Assembly (NCBI RefSeq): GCF_017908595.1
Contig: NZ_JAGKTL010000003.1
Span: forward strand, 372,001-436,000
Direction of reading: 5' to 3'
Origin: Rhodothermus bifroesti
GTDB taxonomy: Bacteria > Bacteroidota > Rhodothermia > Rhodothermales > Rhodothermaceae
DNA length: 64,000 nt
Of this stretch, positions 3,334 to 49,413 are shown in pieces. The notes beneath the pieces were generated by a model that did no database searches, was not told the origin of the DNA, and saw only the letters and a list, made by a program, of their open reading frames with translations. Position 1 is the stretch's first letter. Every line of letters begins with the position of its first letter. Both the position numbers and the translations under genes were made by a program.

Positions 3334-5469
3334 TTACTGCCCGCTTACCACGACAGATCGGTGATAGACCTGTCCGGATTGCTGCAGTTGCAGCAGGTAA
3401 ATTCCGGCTGGCAGCGCCTCTGGCTGCCAGCGGAGTTGATGGGTACCTGCGGGTAGAAAACCTTCAAAGATGCGTCCGACCTCTTGGCCGAGCACGTTGT
3501 AGACCCGTAGGGTTAAGGGCCCGGACTGCATTAGCACCACCTCGATGGTGGCCTCGCGACCAACGGGATGTGGATAAACCGCGCGTAATCCTCCCGTAAA
3601 GGAAGCTGGGGCAGCTTCACGGGTTGTGAGCACTTGCTCGGTCACAAAGGCCCCAGTTCCCATGTGTACAAAATAGCGGGCCTCCCTCCAGGGATCCCCC
3701 CCAGTGAGAAAAATCCCATAAAGCGGTGTGTTAGCATCTACCTCTAGGCCGTAATCCGGACCCAGAAAGCCTCCAACTAGCCGTCCCCATCCAGAAGAGA
3801 GGGCGGCCAAAAATTCGGTGGCGTTGTGCGCCAGTGCCGTGTCGGCAGCTTGGTCAGAGTCAACCATGTCCGGGTAGGGCAGTTTGGGTAGGCTGCGCCA
3901 ATCTGCCTCCAGCGTGTCAATATGTACAACCAGATTGTTTGCCAGACGTATCTGTAACGCCTGCCCTCCTGCGACCAGATCAACGCTCCACTCCGAAGCC
4001 TTGCCGCTGAACGGATCAAACGGACTGACTTCGAAACCTATAATGCCATCCCCTTCCTGCCTTGAAGGTGCTTTCTCCAAAGCCGCATTTAGAGCTGCCT
4101 TGGCCCGAATCGGCTCATAAGCTACCTGCTCATTCCCTTGCAGGTTGTAAGCAGCGCTGTATTCCAGCTCGCCCTGTAAGGGCGCTGCTAAAGGACGCCA
4201 TTCTTGCACCAACCAAATGGGCAGCTCTGGATCTAAAGGATAGAGGCTGGGCTGAAGAAAACCTTGACTTGTGAACCAATGATACAATTGTCCAGCCATG
4301 AGCTGAAAGCCGCTGTGTTGCGTACTTGGAAAACGATTCATAAAAGCAGCTACGATCGCGTCAGAATCCTGCATGTCGTTTAAAGGAAGCGGCTGCATTT
4401 GGCGATATGGCCTGGACATTATGGGCTTTAACGCTCCAGGTGCACCTCCCCTAACCTCTAGCGTATAGGCTGTATCTTGTGAAGGAGCGTACGCAGTGAA
4501 GTTCCATACAAAGGAACGGCCGGTGGTGTCCACAAAACCCTGAAGAAAAACAATCTGGGCATCGCTGGCCTCAGCTTGAAAAGCACTTTGGGCTAGGGTA
4601 GCAGCTTCAAGTGCTGTAGTGGTGATCAGACGGATAACTGGAACGTTCAACCCTGAAAGATCTGGAGGAATTTGCAACGCGTCGGGTGTGTCATCCTGGT
4701 TGGCATCATAGATGCCATAGCCTGCAGGTTCTCCTAGATTGCCAGGTTCAAAAAATAAGGCTAAAAGATAATACGTGCCTGGACGTACGTAGTCGAGTGT
4801 AAAAGCACCATCGGCAGCAGAGACTGCAATCCGGGCGACCGTGGTAATTTCTAGACTAGGGCTTGTGGTGAGCAGTACCAACCAGTTACCCAAGTGACCT
4901 GACTGAACAGTGGGAGGCTGTGAGATCAAAAGGCGGGAAGGCGGGGTTTGCCCTGAGGATGAGGCCGCCGAAATGCTGAGGGTAAGACGAGGCATCTGCC
5001 AGGAAGCCACAGAAGATGTAGCCAGCCGAGGATAGATCTCACCGGGTCCCCCAGAAGAAAATTCTACAAGATGACCGCTAACGGTGTGTTCTCCAGCAGT
5101 GGAGGCCGTGGTGTAGTAAAAGGTATACCTTTGTGCCAAGCGGTTTCCAGAGATGCTTTTGGCATAAAAAACAACCCAGAGATAATCCCGGTCGGCCTGA
5201 TGGGTTAGGTTAAAGGTAATCGTACGCCCATCTGGGCTCAAGGAAACCCTGGAAGGGTCACTCAGCTGCTGTTGCAAAAGCGTATCTAAAGGAAAAATGA
5301 GCAAACTGTCTGCTGGATTAATGGCCTGGTTGAATGTAATGGAGACCGGTGTGGTGAGGGCTACGTTTGCCGAACCATGGGCAGGCGAGACCGCTACCAC
5401 TCGCAGGTCTTGAGCCTGAACCAGGGGGATAGTGCAGAAAAGGCTCAAAATGAGTAATGCATGTTTCAT
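3334..5469 (-). CDS. Secreted Ig-like protein with T9SS type A sorting domain
   Basis: A 711-residue exported protein of unknown function. It starts with a clear signal peptide (hydrophobic residues 4-14, VQAQ cleavage region near 17-20). An SbsA-like Ig domain follows at about 22-125 (VVAVSPAHGSANVALTTPV, VSITFNQAINPADS). The middle part contains a carboxypeptidase-regulatory-like segment (FTLDYVRPGTYYLLALF) of the kind common in Bacteroidota envelope proteins. The last 85 or so residues form a Por-type C-terminal sorting domain (RVYNVLGQEV, GTHQLRWQ, LPAGIYLLQLQ), which routes proteins through the type IX secretion system to the surface. The gene is monocistronic by context: a strong terminator follows and the upstream gene is divergent. 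Confidence 0.88.
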   Translation of the reverse strand: MKHALLILSLFCTIPLVQAQDLRVVAVSPAHGSANVALTTPVSITFNQAINPADSLLIFPLDTLLQQQLSDPSRVSLSPDGRTITFNLTHQADRDYLWVVFYAKSISGNRLAQRYTFYYTTASTAGEHTVSGHLVEFSSGGPGEIYPRLATSSVASWQMPRLTLSISAASSSGQTPPSRLLISQPPTVQSGHLGNWLVLLTTSPSLEITTVARIAVSAADGAFTLDYVRPGTYYLLALFFEPGNLGEPAGYGIYDANQDDTPDALQIPPDLSGLNVPVIRLITTTALEAATLAQSAFQAEASDAQIVFLQGFVDTTGRSFVWNFTAYAPSQDTAYTLEVRGGAPGALKPIMSRPYRQMQPLPLNDMQDSDAIVAAFMNRFPSTQHSGFQLMAGQLYHWFTSQGFLQPSLYPLDPELPIWLVQEWRPLAAPLQGELEYSAAYNLQGNEQVAYEPIRAKAALNAALEKAPSRQEGDGIIGFEVSPFDPFSGKASEWSVDLVAGGQALQIRLANNLVVHIDTLEADWRSLPKLPYPDMVDSDQAADTALAHNATEFLAALSSGWGRLVGGFLGPDYGLEVDANTPLYGIFLTGGDPWREARYFVHMGTGAFVTEQVLTTREAAPASFTGGLRAVYPHPVGREATIEVVLMQSGPLTLRVYNVLGQEVGRIFEGFLPAGTHQLRWQPEALPAGIYLLQLQQSGQVYHRSVVVSGQ

Positions 5470-42563: not shown

Positions 42564-43181
42564 ATGCTGACAAGGTTTTTGTACCTGGACGAGCAGTGCT
42601 TGGAGGACTTGCTGTTTGTGGATTATCTGGCACGCATCTTAAAGCAGCTCACAGCACCGCTGGTTTTGGTGCATGGAAGCGGAGGGCGTGCTGAGCAGCT
42701 GTTGGAAGCTGAAGGCTATGTGCCTCGAAGGGAAAAAGGCGTGCTCGTGGTACAGTCGGCACGGGAACAGATGCTGATTGAGCGGGGAATCCGAGAGACC
42801 AATCAGCGCCTGGTGGCTGAACTGAGCGAACGACTGGTGCCTGCCGTAGGCATTCAAGGCACCGATCGCGGACTGCTACGCCGAGAATGCGATGGGACGC
42901 TGAAGGTTGGTCGCGTTGACTGGCTGCGCACGCTGCTTGCCCAAGGCATCTGGCCTGTGCTCTCTACCTTAGCACGCGAGCATGCGCAAGCCGTCGAGGT
43001 GAATCCAGCTGAGATGCTCTCCGCTTTAGCCAAAGCTTGGCCTTTAGATGCAGCTCAAGTGCTGCTGCTTGCAGACCCCAAAACGCACCAACCGGCTGCA
43101 GCAGATGTAGCGCACCACCTTCTTCAAGAAGGCATTCCCTTGTGGGTCGGTCCCCTAGAAGCGTTACGCAAGCTACATTAA
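42564..43181 (+). CDS. Acetylglutamate-kinase-like protein with degenerate active site
   Basis: A 205-residue protein that follows the order of N-acetylglutamate kinase (amino-acid kinase fold). APLVLVHGSGGRAEQLL matches the VVHGGGP loop, RGIRETNQRLVAEL the substrate-lid helices, GIQGTDRGLLRRE the GxSGKDGxL segment, and VDWLRTLLAQGIWPVLSTLA the beta-alpha unit before the nucleotide site. The first strand with the catalytic KxGG is missing (the protein begins MLTRFLYLDEQC). The IN(I/V)NAD motif is VEVNPAEML, and the kinase's last Lys-containing segment is not evident. It may be a regulatory relative or a pseudoenzyme. It stands alone, divergent from dnaE, with no arg genes nearby. Confidence 0.6.
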   Translation: MLTRFLYLDEQCLEDLLFVDYLARILKQLTAPLVLVHGSGGRAEQLLEAEGYVPRREKGVLVVQSAREQMLIERGIRETNQRLVAELSERLVPAVGIQGTDRGLLRRECDGTLKVGRVDWLRTLLAQGIWPVLSTLAREHAQAVEVNPAEMLSALAKAWPLDAAQVLLLADPKTHQPAAADVAHHLLQEGIPLWVGPLEALRKLH

Positions 43182-43319: not shown

Positions 43320-43496
43320 ATGAACCGCTTTGAACAACTCCGTGATTTTGTCATGGGCCTGGAGGCTGATTTCAAAAAATTCTACGAAAAAGGCAACAAA
43401 GCAGCTGGTACGCGGGTGCGCAAAGCGATGCAAGACCTCAAAAAGCTGGCCCAAGAGATCCGCGTAGAAATTCAGGAGAAAAAGAACCAGATGTAA
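43320..43496 (+). CDS. Histone H1-like small protein (Hc1 family)
   Basis: A 58-residue, Lys/Arg-rich helical protein: MNRFEQLRDFVMGLEADFK, then KFYEKGNKAAGTRVRKAMQD, then LKKLAQEIRVEIQEKKNQM. The KFY-x-KGN-AAGTR-RK-x-Q-LK core is the Bacteroidota version of the chlamydial Hc1 family and is expected to bind DNA as a nucleoid protein. A good Shine-Dalgarno, GGAGG at 43308-43312, precedes the ATG, and a strong terminator follows, so it is a self-contained transcription unit. Its small size makes it easy to miss. Confidence 0.9.
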   Translation: MNRFEQLRDFVMGLEADFKKFYEKGNKAAGTRVRKAMQDLKKLAQEIRVEIQEKKNQM

Positions 43497-43530: not shown

Positions 43531-43561
43531 AAAAGGCTATGCGTAAGGCATAGCCTTTTTT
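43531..43561 (+). terminator. Terminator after the Hc1-like gene
   Basis: AAAAGGCTATGC at 43531-43542 pairs with GCATAGCCTTTT at 43548-43559 around GTAAG, ending in a T-run that extends to 43561. Confidence 0.92.
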
Positions 43562-43595: not shown

Positions 43596-44477
43596 ATGCT
43601 GAAAATTAAAAACTTGTTTGTAGTATTCATAGGGATATCTACACCACTGCAAGCTGCGCCACATGGTTTAGCGGATACGACACAGGTTTGGTGGAAGCGG
43701 TCGCTGGGGGCTCGGCTTTCGGCCACGCAAGCTTCTTTTAGTCATTGGGCTGAAGGAGGACTGAGCGCATTGGCCCTTTCGGGAGCAATCAATGGAACGT
43801 TTGAGCGCTTGTCGCCGGCCTGGCGCCAACTCTACGACATACGCCTCTCGCTAGGGGTGGTAAAGCAGGATACGCTAGAGCTGCGTAAGGCTGAGGATGT
43901 GATTCGGGTAGCCGCTTCTTTGCAGTATCGGGGGGATGGATTTTTTGGCTTGTTTAATCCAACGTTGTCGGCAGATGTGCGCACGCAATTTGCCTCAGGC
44001 TACAACTACACCAAAAATCCGTTTGGTGACGGACGTCAGCCACCGGTAAAGGTGTCGGACTTGTTTTCGCCGGCCATTTTTAACCAAGCCCTAGGGCTTA
44101 CCTATCAGCCCGACGGCTGGTTTCGCCAGCGGCTAGGCGTGGGTGCCAAAGAGACGGTAGTATTGCTGGAGCGTCTACGTGCACTTTACGGATTAGCCCC
44201 AAATCAAACGGTACGCTTTGAGGTTGGGGTAGAATCTCGCACAGAGCTAGACCGGCAGCTTTTTGAAAATGTGCGGCTTAAGTCCCGTCTCGGGCTTTTT
44301 GGCGCCTTCAACAAGCCTGATCTTCCGGATATGCTTTGGGAAAACCTGCTTGAAATGCAGGTCAATAGCTGGTTAGGGACGAGTTTGGAAGTGGTGGCCT
44401 TGTATGACCGGGACATCAGTCGCCGCGTGCAACTCAAGGAAGTGTTTTCGTTGGGCGTTACCATTAAGTTGATTTGA
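43596..44477 (+). CDS. DUF3078 outer-membrane-type protein
   Basis: A 293-residue exported protein. A signal peptide (LFVVFIGISTPLQAA) leads into a DUF3078 domain: WWKRSLGARLSATQASFSHWAEGGLSALALSG fits the family start with its conserved SHWAEGG. Alternating hydrophobic beta-strands and the final FSLGVTIKLI suggest a small beta-barrel. Members are almost confined to Bacteroidota; no function is known. ATG 43596 was preferred over the frame start at 43560, which lies inside the upstream terminator. It opens a run of envelope genes (protease, Plug lipoprotein, symporter). Confidence 0.85.
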   Translation: MLKIKNLFVVFIGISTPLQAAPHGLADTTQVWWKRSLGARLSATQASFSHWAEGGLSALALSGAINGTFERLSPAWRQLYDIRLSLGVVKQDTLELRKAEDVIRVAASLQYRGDGFFGLFNPTLSADVRTQFASGYNYTKNPFGDGRQPPVKVSDLFSPAIFNQALGLTYQPDGWFRQRLGVGAKETVVLLERLRALYGLAPNQTVRFEVGVESRTELDRQLFENVRLKSRLGLFGAFNKPDLPDMLWENLLEMQVNSWLGTSLEVVALYDRDISRRVQLKEVFSLGVTIKLI

Positions 44478-44544
44478 TCGCCTTGAAGGCAGGTGTTCCG
44501 AGGCATTATTCTTAGCTTGCTGCACGCCAGCGGGGCTAGAAAGC

Positions 44545-46692
44545 ATGTGGATCCCGGAACGATACCGCAGTACGCGGGGATGCTTACTGTTGTATGTTGC
44601 GCTGGGGATAGCCTTATGGCCGGTACCACTGTTAGGTATGCTGCACGTCGAGGCAGCGGCGCTATGGGCAACGGTGGCTTTTTTTGTGGCAGGATGGTGG
44701 ACGATCGGCTACGTGCGTTTTGGGGGTAACTTGGATGAGGCCCTTAAGGTGCAACTCGGCTTATTGCTGATACCTTGGCTACTGCTCAGCGTGACCACAG
44801 TATGGCGTCCAAACTGCGACTACCTACGGGGTTTGCTATTTTTTATACTTTTCCCACCTGTCAGCGTAGCTTTAGCGGTTGCATTGGCTGGGGCCCTGGA
44901 GGCGATTCGCCTTAGGCGATCGCGGCTATGGTTTGTGGGTGTGGGGCTTGGGCTGATGGTGATACCGGTTTTTTACGACCTGCGATGGCATCCGCAGCTG
45001 TACACCTATAATCATGTTTTTGGAGGCATTCTAGGCCCTATCTATGAGGAAGCGTTGGCTCTAAGGCCAGGTCTGTTTGTGTTTCGAGCTGTTAGCTTGC
45101 TTTGGGCTTTGTGGCTATATGGTGTTTGGCGGTTTTACCAGGCCATTTGGACAGAGCGCTTCGTCTGGTACCGAGCGCAGGTAGGACTGGCATTGTTGCT
45201 AGCGGCCTGCTACCAAATGGCTGAACCTTTAGGGTTTAACACGTCTACCGCTCAGCTAGCCCGGGCGCTGCCAGGCCAGGCCTCTTGGGGTCAGGTGATA
45301 CTGCATTACGATCCACGTTTTTTGAAGCCTGGGATGGCTGCTCACTATGCCCAGAAAGCGGCTTATTTTTATGAACGACTCTTGCAGCAGTTCGATATTA
45401 CAGATCCAGAGCTGGTGCACCTTTGGGTGTTTTCGGATCCAGAGCAGCGGGCGCAACTTACCGGAGCGCGGCAGGCCAGCGTGGCCTTGGTTTGGCTACC
45501 ACAACCCCAGGTGCACTTGTGGCAGGGAGCCTTTGCACGTACGATAGCCCACGAGCTGGTCCATGTCGCGGCTCGGCGTTGGGGAGTGTTGGGGATTTCG
45601 CCACGCATTGGGTTGCTTGAGGGTTTGGCGGTAGCCTTGGAGCCCCCCGACGGTAGGCCAACGCCACATGAACAAGCTGCTGTAGCGGCCGCCATGGTGC
45701 GGGATCCAGAAAGCAGACTTGCTGATCGGGTTGCCACTCTGGTGACACCGCAAGGCTTTTGGACAAGCCGCAGCGCTGTGGCGTATACCCTAGCTGGATC
45801 GTTTGTACGTTTTCTTTGGGACCACTATGGAGCAGATCCCTTGCAACAGGTTTATCGTGGCGCCTCATTTCAGAAAGCTTATGGCCAACCTTTGGAAGCC
45901 CTGCTTAGGCAGTGGCAGCAGATGCTGCAGCTGTTGCCGGCCGTCGACCGCGGTACATGGGCTTATGTAAGGCGGCGTTTTGCGGTGCCTGCACTCATAG
46001 AGCGGCACTGCCCGCACTACGTGCCGCCAGAAGTCCGCGCCTACGAGGCAGCGCAACGCGCCTTGCTTTATGGCGATACCCTGCAGGCATTGCAGCACCT
46101 AGAACGCGTCGGAGAACGTTATCCTTTAGCGCTTGCGCTTTGGGCACGGATTCGGTTGCTACGCGGTGAAGCCCTAGCGGTACTGGAGCGCCTAGGGGAC
46201 CTGTCGGCTTTGTCTAACTGGCTGGTGCTAGCGCGGTACCGAGCCGATGCCTGGGCTTTGTCTGGCTCGGTCGATGCAGCCCGCCGCGCCTATGCCCAGC
46301 TTTACGCTCGGTGGCCCCTGTATGATTGGGAAGGCCGACTCGGGTTGGTGTTGCGCCAACAGATCGCCGATCAGCCCGAAGCATTGCGCAAGTGGTTTCA
46401 GCAGGAAAATGAAGGATGCTGGTGTGAAGCCGAAGTCCTTGACGTATCTTTAGCTCCGAGCTTACCCGATGGCCAATTGCTTTTGCTGCAGAGCTATCTG
46501 GAAATGCAAACAATGATCCGTGCTTGCCGTCAGGGTCGATGGGATGAAGCGCAGCGGCGAGGTGAGCAGCTTTATGCCTTGCTGCAACAGGCGGGTGCTT
46601 ATGCACAGGCAGCCCGGGTCGCAGAAAATTTGGCATGGTACACTTGGCTACAACGCGCGCTTGCGGGGCGGCCTGCCTACTGCTGCTTTTAG
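44545..46692 (+). CDS. Membrane gluzincin protease with C-terminal helical repeats
   Basis: A 715-residue protein with three parts. Residues 1-230 contain about six hydrophobic helices. Residues about 250-450 form a peptidase-MA-like zinc protease domain: H336-E-L-V-H340 is followed 18 residues later by E359 in LLEGLAV, and YTLAGSFVRFLWDHYG at about 414-429 is the expected supporting helix. The rest is helical with TPR-like spacing (ALQHLERVGERYPLALALWARIRLL, SVDAARRAYAQLYARWPLYD). Zinc ligands and general base are all kept, so it should be active, with the catalytic part facing the periplasm by inference. The 3' end overlaps the Plug gene by 58 nt. Confidence 0.75.
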   Translation: MWIPERYRSTRGCLLLYVALGIALWPVPLLGMLHVEAAALWATVAFFVAGWWTIGYVRFGGNLDEALKVQLGLLLIPWLLLSVTTVWRPNCDYLRGLLFFILFPPVSVALAVALAGALEAIRLRRSRLWFVGVGLGLMVIPVFYDLRWHPQLYTYNHVFGGILGPIYEEALALRPGLFVFRAVSLLWALWLYGVWRFYQAIWTERFVWYRAQVGLALLLAACYQMAEPLGFNTSTAQLARALPGQASWGQVILHYDPRFLKPGMAAHYAQKAAYFYERLLQQFDITDPELVHLWVFSDPEQRAQLTGARQASVALVWLPQPQVHLWQGAFARTIAHELVHVAARRWGVLGISPRIGLLEGLAVALEPPDGRPTPHEQAAVAAAMVRDPESRLADRVATLVTPQGFWTSRSAVAYTLAGSFVRFLWDHYGADPLQQVYRGASFQKAYGQPLEALLRQWQQMLQLLPAVDRGTWAYVRRRFAVPALIERHCPHYVPPEVRAYEAAQRALLYGDTLQALQHLERVGERYPLALALWARIRLLRGEALAVLERLGDLSALSNWLVLARYRADAWALSGSVDAARRAYAQLYARWPLYDWEGRLGLVLRQQIADQPEALRKWFQQENEGCWCEAEVLDVSLAPSLPDGQLLLLQSYLEMQTMIRACRQGRWDEAQRRGEQLYALLQQAGAYAQAARVAENLAWYTWLQRALAGRPAYCCF

Positions 46693-47951
46693 TGGGAGCC
46701 TGTGCCGCAACCCAAGAGGCTGGACAGCCTGTAGGCGCTGCTCGTGCGCAACATGCACCAACACTACCTAGCAGGATAGGCCCGGGTTTGCTCCCAGATG
46801 GAGAAGCGGTGGGATTGGTGCAGCTCTACCAAGGAGAAGATGAGCGCCAGTGGCCGATCTTACGCCTAGGAAGCCGCGATTATTTGACCCTAAGCTTTGA
46901 TCTTTTGGCGGCCCAGGCACGGCCGCTTTCGATTTACTTTTATCATGCCGATTACCGTTGGCAGCGCGACCTATTGCCCGCAGAGTATCTGGCGTCGTTT
47001 CACCGAGACGATCTGCTGGCGGCTGAACCTTCGATCCATACTGACTTGGCCTACCAGCATTACGTGTATCGCTTCCCTAACGAAAGCATCCAGTTTCGGC
47101 TAAGCGGGAACTACATTCTTCGGGTGACCGAACAAGGGCAGGAAGATGCCGTTTTGTTTGAGCGAGCGTTTTTTGTGGTTGAGCCCAGGTTACAGGTGGA
47201 GCTCGCTTTCGATGCGTTTCTGGGGAGTCAGGCTGCGCAGCAGGTGCGGCCGCTAGCTCGCTTCCAGGTGCCCGTTGAAATGAGTGCCGCAGTGTTCGAC
47301 TTTACGGTTTGCTTTGCCCGTAACGGAGGTTTTGAAGCAGTGCGCTGCAGCCGACGGCCACTTTTGGACGAACAGCCTATGGTGAGTTTTACGTTAGCAC
47401 CTGAAGAAGCTTTTCCACCGGAGCCTGCCGACTATTTTCTGGACCTAAGCACCTTGCAACCCGGAGGGCGCATTCAGCGTGTCGACCGAGGCACGCAGCC
47501 GCCGGAGGTGTGGTTGGAGCCGGATTACGTACGTTTTGGCGGAAGTGATGTCGAGCCGCTTTTGGCTGGGCAGTCGGTGGTAACCGCGGTAGTGCGTGAT
47601 GCGCCTGGCGATCCTAGCGTGGCTGCCGCGTATGTGCGGGTACGTTTTCGATTGGTGCCTGAGCGACCTTTGGGCCGAGAAGTATTTCTCATAGGCAGTT
47701 TTTCAGGATGGCAAGTGCGACCTGCTTATCGAATGCGCTGGCATCCAGAGCAGCGTTACTATGAAGGAGAAGCCTTGGTGAAGCAGGGTTGGCATGCTTA
47801 CCGCTATGTGCTTGGCGGCGACGTTGCATTGCGGGCAAATGCACAAGCAATGCCGCGCTCGGAAAATGTATACACTGCCTTGGTGTACTTTCGCGACAGC
47901 AGCCGCGGCACCGATCGGCTCCTTGGGATAGGGAATCAAACCGCACCGTAA
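46635..47951 (+). CDS. Type IX secretion Plug-type lipoprotein (DUF5103)
   Basis: A 438-residue protein of the DUF5103/T9SS Plug family, whose characterised member blocks the SprA/Sov translocon pore in its resting state. A lipoprotein signal is visible: a Leu-rich core, then LVGAC with Cys at residue 23. The family segments follow, VGLVQLYQGEDERQWPILRLGSRDYLTLSFDLL, LSIYFYHADYRWQRDLLPAEYLASFHRDD and YRFPNESIQFRLSGNYILRV. The C-terminal 90 residues include an early-set/CBM48-like stretch, VFLIGSFSGWQVRPAYRMRW. It overlaps the protease gene and supports a working T9SS, as does the cargo protein at 3.3-5.5 kb. Confidence 0.82.
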   Translation: MVHLATTRACGAACLLLLLVGACAATQEAGQPVGAARAQHAPTLPSRIGPGLLPDGEAVGLVQLYQGEDERQWPILRLGSRDYLTLSFDLLAAQARPLSIYFYHADYRWQRDLLPAEYLASFHRDDLLAAEPSIHTDLAYQHYVYRFPNESIQFRLSGNYILRVTEQGQEDAVLFERAFFVVEPRLQVELAFDAFLGSQAAQQVRPLARFQVPVEMSAAVFDFTVCFARNGGFEAVRCSRRPLLDEQPMVSFTLAPEEAFPPEPADYFLDLSTLQPGGRIQRVDRGTQPPEVWLEPDYVRFGGSDVEPLLAGQSVVTAVVRDAPGDPSVAAAYVRVRFRLVPERPLGREVFLIGSFSGWQVRPAYRMRWHPEQRYYEGEALVKQGWHAYRYVLGGDVALRANAQAMPRSENVYTALVYFRDSSRGTDRLLGIGNQTAP

Positions 47952-47999
47952 AACGTTTACGCGGACGTTTTTGCCTACTAACCCTGAAAGCTTGCCGCG

Positions 48000-49382
48000 A
48001 TGCCACTGGTTCTTTTGGGGATAGGCCTCTATGTGCTCATGCAACTCTTTATAGGGGCCTGGGTCTCTCGGCGCATTCGTACAGAAGCCGACTACTTGCT
48101 TGCCGGACGTAGCTTAGGCTATGGTTTGACGACCTTTACGGTGTTTGCTACGTGGTTTGGAGCCGAGACCTGTATTGGTTCCGCAGGATCTATTTACGCC
48201 GAAGGTCTGGCTGGAGGAACAGCAGATCCTTTTGGCTATGGGCTTTGTTTGCTGTTCATGGGGCTGTTTTTTGCGGTGCCGCTTTGGCGACGTGGCCTAA
48301 CCACGCTGGCCGACCTGTTTCGGCAGCGTTACAGCGTTCGGGTTGAGCGTTTAGCCGTGCTGCTATTGGTGCCTACCGGACTGCTGTGGGCTGCTGCACA
48401 AATCCGTGCCTTTGGGCAGGTGCTGGCTGCTTCTTCGGGGTGGAATGTTGAGCTGACGATCACGTTGGCGGCTTTGGTGGTGATTGTTTACACCATCTCT
48501 GGTGGGCTGCTAGCCGATGCGTGGACCGACCTCATCCAAGGGATTGCGTTGATTATTGGCCTAGGGGTACTGGGCGTTGCGGTATGGCAGCAACAGGGCG
48601 AAATGCTGCTGCAGGTGCCTGCCGAACGCATCAACCCCTTTCACGGCTATGATAGCTGGTGGGATGCGGCAGAAGCATGGGCGATTCCTGTCTTTGGCTC
48701 GGTGCTTTCGGCTGAGCTTGTATCGCGCATTTTGGGGGCTCGATCTGCAGAAGTTGCTCGACGCTCTTCCCTGATAGCCTCAGGTATTTACTTGCTGGTA
48801 GGACTGATCCCGGTTTCCTTAGGGCTGATGGGGCCTATGATTCTTCCTGGGCTAGAGCATCCGGAACAACTCCTGCCGCGCTTGGCTGGGCAATACCTGC
48901 CAACGCTGCTTTACGTCGCTTTTGCTGGGGCCCTGGTATCGGCCATTTTGTCGACGGTCGACAGTGCATTGCTGGTAGCTTCCTCTTTGGTTTCCCATAA
49001 CCTAGTGGTTCCTCTGCTTCCCGGGCTTTCAGAGCGGCAAAAGGTGTGGATTGCTCGAGGGGGGGTAGCCCTCTTTGGGGTGATCGCATATATCATGGCC
49101 CTCTATGCTGAGGGTGTGTATGCTTTGGTTGAAGAAGCTTCGGCGTTTGGCAGTGCTGGCTTGTTTGTGGTAATCCTGTTTGGGCTGTTTTCACGCTATG
49201 GCGGGGAGTGGACGGCACTAGCCACTCTGGGAGCCGGGATTACCAGTTGGGTTTTAGGTGCTTACATTTTTGAGTGGCCCCATCCGTATCTCACTTCGCT
49301 GGGCACGGCATTCTCGGTTTATCTGCTAGGGATGTTGCTGGAACGGATGCCGATACGTGCCGAATCGGTATCCACTTCTTAA
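48000..49382 (+). CDS. Sodium:solute symporter (SSS family)
   Basis: A 460-residue transporter with about 12-13 hydrophobic helices. Family features are ADYLLAGRSLGYGLTTFTVFATWFGAETCIGSAGSIYAEG, the helix-2/3 region PLWRRGLTTLADLFRQRYSVRVERLAVL, YTISGGLLADAWTDLIQG, and ILSTVDSALLVASSLVSHNL, which carries Ser/Thr residues of the Na2 sodium site. The substrate (sugar, amino acid, or carboxylate) cannot be told from sequence. It begins 48 nt after the Plug gene. Confidence 0.9.
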   Translation: MPLVLLGIGLYVLMQLFIGAWVSRRIRTEADYLLAGRSLGYGLTTFTVFATWFGAETCIGSAGSIYAEGLAGGTADPFGYGLCLLFMGLFFAVPLWRRGLTTLADLFRQRYSVRVERLAVLLLVPTGLLWAAAQIRAFGQVLAASSGWNVELTITLAALVVIVYTISGGLLADAWTDLIQGIALIIGLGVLGVAVWQQQGEMLLQVPAERINPFHGYDSWWDAAEAWAIPVFGSVLSAELVSRILGARSAEVARRSSLIASGIYLLVGLIPVSLGLMGPMILPGLEHPEQLLPRLAGQYLPTLLYVAFAGALVSAILSTVDSALLVASSLVSHNLVVPLLPGLSERQKVWIARGGVALFGVIAYIMALYAEGVYALVEEASAFGSAGLFVVILFGLFSRYGGEWTALATLGAGITSWVLGAYIFEWPHPYLTSLGTAFSVYLLGMLLERMPIRAESVSTS

Positions 49383-49413
49383 AAAAGTGGGGAAGCCGCT
49401 TGGGCTTCCCCAC
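49381..49413 (-). terminator. Terminator after the DegP gene
   Basis: GTGGGGAAGCC at 49387-49397 pairs with GGCTTCCCCAC at 49403-49413. On the minus strand it is followed by TTTTTT (49386-49381), so it ends the degP-type gene 26 nt past its stop. The hairpin also stands just after the symporter stop on plus. Confidence 0.9.

Follow-up and report, generated by a model that had tools for sequence, protein, structure and literature searches.

The question raised by this locus of Rhodothermus bifroesti is whether a membrane metalloprotease, encoded directly beside a gene for the Plug of the type IX secretion system (T9SS), is itself a part of that system. The window (the whole stretch of 64,000 nt that was analysed) was initially annotated as holding four same-strand genes, two of them overlapping, and the protease was suggested to process T9SS components or cargo. 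The layout is as described: by ORF analysis, the genes for DUF3078, the protease, Plug and a sodium:solute symporter (SSS) form one head-to-tail run on the + strand (43596-49382). The features of the cluster and its flanks are:

43320..43496, + strand: gene of a histone H1-like protein Hc1, 58 aa (Pfam PF07432, 2.5e-26), a separate upstream unit
43531..43559, + strand: putative intrinsic terminator between the Hc1 gene and the cluster (12-bp stem and T tract; consensus match only)
43596..44477, + strand: gene of a DUF3078 protein (PF11276, 1.4e-13, above cut-off), probably an exported envelope protein; counted from an ATG, the longest frame opening at TTG 43560
44545..46692, + strand: protease gene, 715 aa, with a predicted seven-TM gluzincin-TPR product
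46635..46692, + strand: protease/Plug overlap, 58 nt, with the Plug signal peptide coded across the protease C-terminus
46635..47951, + strand: T9SS Plug lipoprotein gene, 438 aa (NF052315, 3.2e-52; PF17116, 2.2e-27)
48000..49382, + strand: SSS symporter gene, 460 aa (PF00474, 1.4e-37; TIGR00813, 1.4e-44, under its cut-off)
49387..49413, strand unassigned: hairpin between the symporter gene and a convergent DegP-like gene, closing the cluster (11-bp stem; consensus match only)

The symporter falls below every equivalog cut-off, so that no substrate is assignable to what is, by its sequence, a generic SSS protein. A short ArgB-like amino acid kinase is encoded at 42564-43181 of the window (205 aa, under the argB cut-off), and its gene is kept between dnaE and DUF3078 throughout the order.

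We begin with the partner whose function is best established. In the quiescent state the SprA translocon is sealed by Plug (PMC10994853), and the Porphyromonas gingivalis protein PG2092 is now known as Plug (PMC8754138). The window protein passes the NF052315 equivalog cut-off (177.9 bits against 100, residues 62-433), a match that makes its identity as Plug secure. Its N-terminus carries the lipobox LVGAC with predicted cleavage before Cys23. The other expected parts are present in the same genome, namely SprA, about 45 matches to CTD cargo and 12 PorV-family proteins above cut-offs. The 12 PorV-family genes of this 2.9-Mb genome are spread over contigs C1, C2, C5 and C7 of the assembly (G000), and several have a CTD cargo match no more than a few kb away (C5:188106/188478, C1:208596/209680, C2:196499/196987), suggesting dedicated shuttle-cargo pairs. 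The window itself holds a T9SS cargo, a 711-aa exported protein (3334-5469, - strand) with a type A sorting domain (the TIGR04183 match at G000:C3:375346-375579).

The first gene of the cluster was annotated as a barrel-like DUF3078 protein of unknown role. The DUF3078 identity stands, and a role has in fact been proposed: in Table 1 of Heath et al. 2016 (PMC5053529), PF11276 (PG1786) and PG2092 are both T9SS candidates by differential genomics, with the ratio for PF11276/PG1786 (2.2) being the lowest among the entries seen. This candidacy has to be set against its distribution, however. Three genera that lack SprA (G002, G230/G238, G269), and in which no Plug is found either, keep PF11276, while it is absent from the SprA-less genomes listed for family f23. 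DUF3078 has thus not been lost together with the T9SS and is not a strict marker for it.

We turn our attention to the protease. No Pfam or NCBIfam model matches it above cut-off, neither library covering its family, and it can be called a gluzincin at the library level only because its sole Pfam match up to E 10, a sub-threshold one to Peptidase_MA_2 (E 0.083), points there. The HELVH motif (residues 336-340) is followed by a third ligand, Glu359, within GLLEG, and no variation is seen at His336, Glu337, His340 or Glu359 across 21 aligned Bacteroidota homologues that were gathered without selecting on the motif. The motif is therefore as intact as first annotated, and the protein has the HExxH and the conserved downstream Glu ligand of the gluzincins (clan MA). 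The AlphaFold2 model, built on 39 homologues, is confident (pLDDT 92.6, pTM 0.92) and contains seven membrane helices, a gluzincin domain and a TPR domain:

44557..45216, + strand: membrane domain, residues 5-224, seven TM helices, with a suggestive likeness to the ABC-2 permease fold (VIA-align)
45262..45951, + strand: gluzincin catalytic domain, residues 240-469 (Z 14.9 over 221 residues at 3.1 A to the Vibrio collagenase 7esi_A)
45550..45621, + strand: zinc site in the sequence (HELVH codons 45550-45564, Glu359 codon 45619-45621)
46009..46656, + strand: C-terminal TPR domain, residues 489-704

The best matches to the predicted catalytic domain, whose fold is that of a gluzincin, are the peptidase domains of M9 collagenases (Z 14.6-14.9, 217-221 residues, 3.1-3.6 A), while the full model gives no Foldseek match in the PDB at E 0.001 or better. 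Membership in M9 itself was considered and set aside: the folds are alike, but there is no sequence match to the curated M9 model in Pfam up to E 10. From hydropathy and charge, the positively charged loops and the conserved loops lie on opposite sides of the membrane; following the positive-inside rule, the N-terminus would be cytoplasmic and the catalytic and TPR domains periplasmic. Cys91 and Cys489 are invariant in the homologues and both predicted to be periplasmic, so a disulfide between them is possible. The literature searches, as far as they reached, found neither this architecture nor characterised members, and the protease, a putative peptidase, belongs to an undescribed membrane gluzincin-TPR family.

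The protease and Plug genes do overlap by the 58 nt first reported (46635-46692), from which coupled translation had been proposed. Is this overlap an artefact of the chosen start site? In all seven genus members examined, two starts give Plug a lipoprotein signal, the first 58-70 nt and the second 49-61 nt upstream of the point where the protease stop codon ends. Later starts (-7 to -1) would remove this signal, the lipobox being located at or across the protease stop. An artefact is thereby ruled out. In other families the junction, taken from the longest frames, ranges between a 79-nt overlap and gaps of 13-18 nt, with overlaps of 11 nt and 4 nt in between (the 4-nt one ATGA-like). The long overlap as a conserved trait is demonstrated only within the genus; with the junction geometry of the genus and the other families taken together, coupled translation of the two genes is plausible across the order.

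The next question is whether the adjacency means a common pathway. One reading is that the protease was recruited in this order (Rhodothermales) as a T9SS accessory, maturing or removing Plug, or acting in the periplasm to cut cargo or parts of the translocon. Plug adjoins the protease in 18 of the 21 protease-bearing genomes among the 30 sampled from the order, so that the pair is not a peculiarity of this genome, and the overlap of 58-70 nt shared by the genus members examined, the candidacy of both DUF3078 and Plug in Heath et al. 2016, and the SprA, cargo and PorV-family complement of the genome all argue in the same direction. The order also provides counter-examples. The three exceptions belong to one family (f2) that has both genes, apart: the protease follows nadA and a LolD-like gene with no Plug nearby, and in one of its genomes (G013) the Plug gene is on a different contig. 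Six genomes of the order keep Plug without the protease (G203, G211, G239, G254, G274, G290), and in two of these (G239, G290) DUF3078 still adjoins Plug; at the loci examined in family f7, DUF3078 and the protease are both gone from the block. In addition, an enzyme predicted to sit in the inner membrane would have to reach a partner in the outer membrane, the same block includes dnaE and the ArgB-like kinase, and the protease family exists without a T9SS. We consider such recruitment unlikely.

A second reading takes the cluster as a relic of frozen gene order, with common transcription and no common pathway. The conserved block opens with a divergent dnaE and the ArgB-like kinase (AAK), and across the order loci examined the adjacency of AAK and DUF3078 (45/47) is as conserved as that of protease and Plug (50/60), with DUF3078 and protease adjoining in 48/53; the named loci were found via the protease, which biases these counts towards its presence. 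The gene after Plug is variable (a met-zincin, SSS or others). The cluster has the same gene order in further genera and families, so that it is more than chance, and genes outside the block, used as a rough control for adjacency, are not kept beyond the genus. Conservation is hence higher in the block than around it, yet the conserved members of the block include genes without a secretion role. In the gene tree, the Rhodothermales sequences form a clade (0.98) with Balneolales as the sister (1.00); the linked sequences fall in one group and the unlinked f2 sequences outside it. The linkage of protease and Plug probably arose once, after which the gene order would have frozen, and because one assembly event is the simplest history, the many adjacencies count as one observation and not as fifty. 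Such a founding event suits a relic; the flanks past the block, however, show that order is not generally frozen outside the genus, and the three genes are closely spaced, with protease and Plug overlapping. We find this reading quite unlikely.

Two side observations belong to these loci. A second, unrelated zinc peptidase, a DUF5117/DUF4953 met-zincin, is encoded immediately after Plug in many of the order's genomes (e.g., at L080:12522-15044, L075, L083, L088 and L145), which places Plug between two metallopeptidases. At another locus, DUF3078 is duplicated in tandem upstream of the protease (L106:1979-3885).

Beyond the order, the link to secretion is not kept. In a phylum sample of 296 genomes, we find the protease in 106, Plug in 193, SprA_N in 228 and DUF3078 in 223. 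All 106 protease-bearing genomes carry SprA, as read from the listings, but this is a weak test, with SprA missing from just 5 of 139 genera, and the co-occurrence was discounted as support. Read the other way, the protease occurs in 106 of the 228 SprA-positive genomes and is not present in T9SS lineages generally. Plug is not detected in 18 protease genomes, where divergent Plugs may partly be missed, and the groups whose Plugs score best (f26, f18 and f21 among them) are without the protease. For 30 Plug genes taken from the groups that score highest, profiles detect no DUF3078 or protease in the adjoining 1.5 kb; the result is the same for flanks of about 10 kb around the f2 Plug gene and two Plug genes of the Balneolales type. 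Instead, the protease outside the order adjoins proline dehydrogenase (which it follows in Balneolales), murA or other genes. The position directly after murA, seen in families f22, f40 and f19, represents a second conserved setting for the protease (loci L069, L070, L074 and L098, L099, L101 cover f2 after nadA and f22/f40/f19 after murA).

The family also extends outside Bacteroidota, to 13 genomes titled Dadabacteria, Deltaproteobacteria, Myxococcales/Myxococcaceae or Kofleriaceae. SprA and Plug are both absent in 13/13 of these carriers and both present in 3/3 Bacteroidota controls. The carriers are MAGs of unstated completeness; thirteen concordant absences of two genes are nevertheless hard to put down to gaps. 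The protease therefore does not occur only with the T9SS. Its neighbours in Dadabacteria and Myxococcota are unrelated genes (e.g., ORFs identified by eye as CorA-like and riboflavin-synthase-like) that give no functional hint.

From the observed gene order, zinc ligands, confidently predicted fold and distribution, the reading that we hold to be probable is that the protease is a zinc peptidase of the inner membrane that faces the periplasm, serves the envelope in general and is co-expressed with Plug without being a required part of the T9SS. A general envelope role is preferred over a part in secretion because relatives of the protease occur in bacteria without a T9SS. The mechanism that we infer, in topology, activity, substrates and co-transcription alike, would run as follows. 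The protease would reside in the inner membrane with its gluzincin and TPR domains facing the periplasm, where the TPRs and a conserved periplasmic loop (HPQxYxYN...G...G..YD) may recognise protein substrates and the zinc centre would cut them for general maturation or clearance of envelope proteins. In one branch of the order, its gene would have come to lie between DUF3078 and Plug in one operon and would mostly have stayed there, with translation of Plug possibly coupled to that of the protease.

The initial suggestion that the protease processes T9SS components or cargo thus finds no support: dnaE and the ArgB-like kinase are part of the block, the linkage is probably of single origin, neighbours outside the order are unrelated, protease-less relatives keep Plug, and 13/13 distant carriers have neither SprA nor Plug. 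An obligatory T9SS part is rejected on this distribution, and a T9SS function as the main role of the protease is on balance unlikely. Within Bacteroidota some room for such a role is left, with a link to Plug in this order that is old and tight and a co-occurrence with SprA (106/106) that is weak. The most specific version, in which the DUF3078-protease-Plug operon is a Rhodothermales module for T9SS gating or maturation, where a dedicated inner-membrane metallopeptidase cuts or turns over Plug or SprA-bound Plug to control the opening of the translocon and DUF3078 serves as an outer-membrane partner, we regard as very doubtful.

The membrane domain predicted alone reaches a pLDDT of 93.4. 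ABC-2-type permeases fill the best 50 VIA-align rows for residues 2-206, led by NosY (7o12_E, Z 13.7, 186 residues, 3.4 A) and ABCG2 (Z 13.6), where Z is near the warning level of the tool for helical bundles. A sequence search of PDB chains matched none, and the Pfam ABC-2 models have no match among 21 family members. We keep the likeness as suggestive since Foldseek and sequence searches are unsupportive and high scores arise by chance between helical bundles. It is most improbable that the protease acts as a subunit of an ABC-2-type exporter, its periplasmic peptidase tail trimming the exported substrate and the ATPase being encoded elsewhere: beside this alignment stand Foldseek E-values above 0.7, the missing sequence matches, Z values near the warning level and a cluster without an ABC ATPase. 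Fusions of permeases with M1 aminopeptidases exist; our literature search for permease-aminopeptidase fusions returned nothing.

The main interest of the locus is then the undescribed and widespread membrane gluzincin-TPR family itself, a conserved, membrane-anchored metallopeptidase family that spans Bacteroidota, Dadabacteria and Myxococcota-type genomes and is covered by no Pfam or NCBIfam model. For DUF3078, an uncharacterised T9SS candidate of 2016, sharing an operon with Plug provides gene-context support that is new and independent, and not decisive. More generally, adjacency inside one order is not proof of a common pathway.

Finally, we compare the cluster with known systems. NosY and ABCG2 resemble the membrane domain without any sequence match, and the protease differs from them in being fused to a peptidase and having no ATPase partner in the cluster. 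The M9 collagenases (Vibrio VhaC, Clostridium ColG/ColH/ColT) have the closest solved fold to residues 240-469 (Z 12.5-14.9) and gluzincin zinc ligands of the same kind; the protease shares about 10% identity with them, has no Pfam M9 match and is membrane-anchored and TPR-tailed, whereas the collagenases are secreted. BepA (YfgC, M48) is the best Foldseek match (6ait, E 0.012), and both proteins join a zinc protease to TPRs in the envelope, but the TM-scores are only 0.16-0.30. BepA is periplasmic and lacks a seven-helix domain. The DUF3078 protein shares PF11276 with P. gingivalis PG1786, the window protein being above the cut-off. The closest counterparts of the window Plug are the characterised Plugs (F. 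johnsoniae Plug and P. gingivalis PG2092/PGN_0144). The window protein, with an N-terminal lipobox read from its own sequence, lies above the equivalog cut-off of NF052315 and is set apart by its context, an operon with DUF3078 and the protease that we find only in this order.
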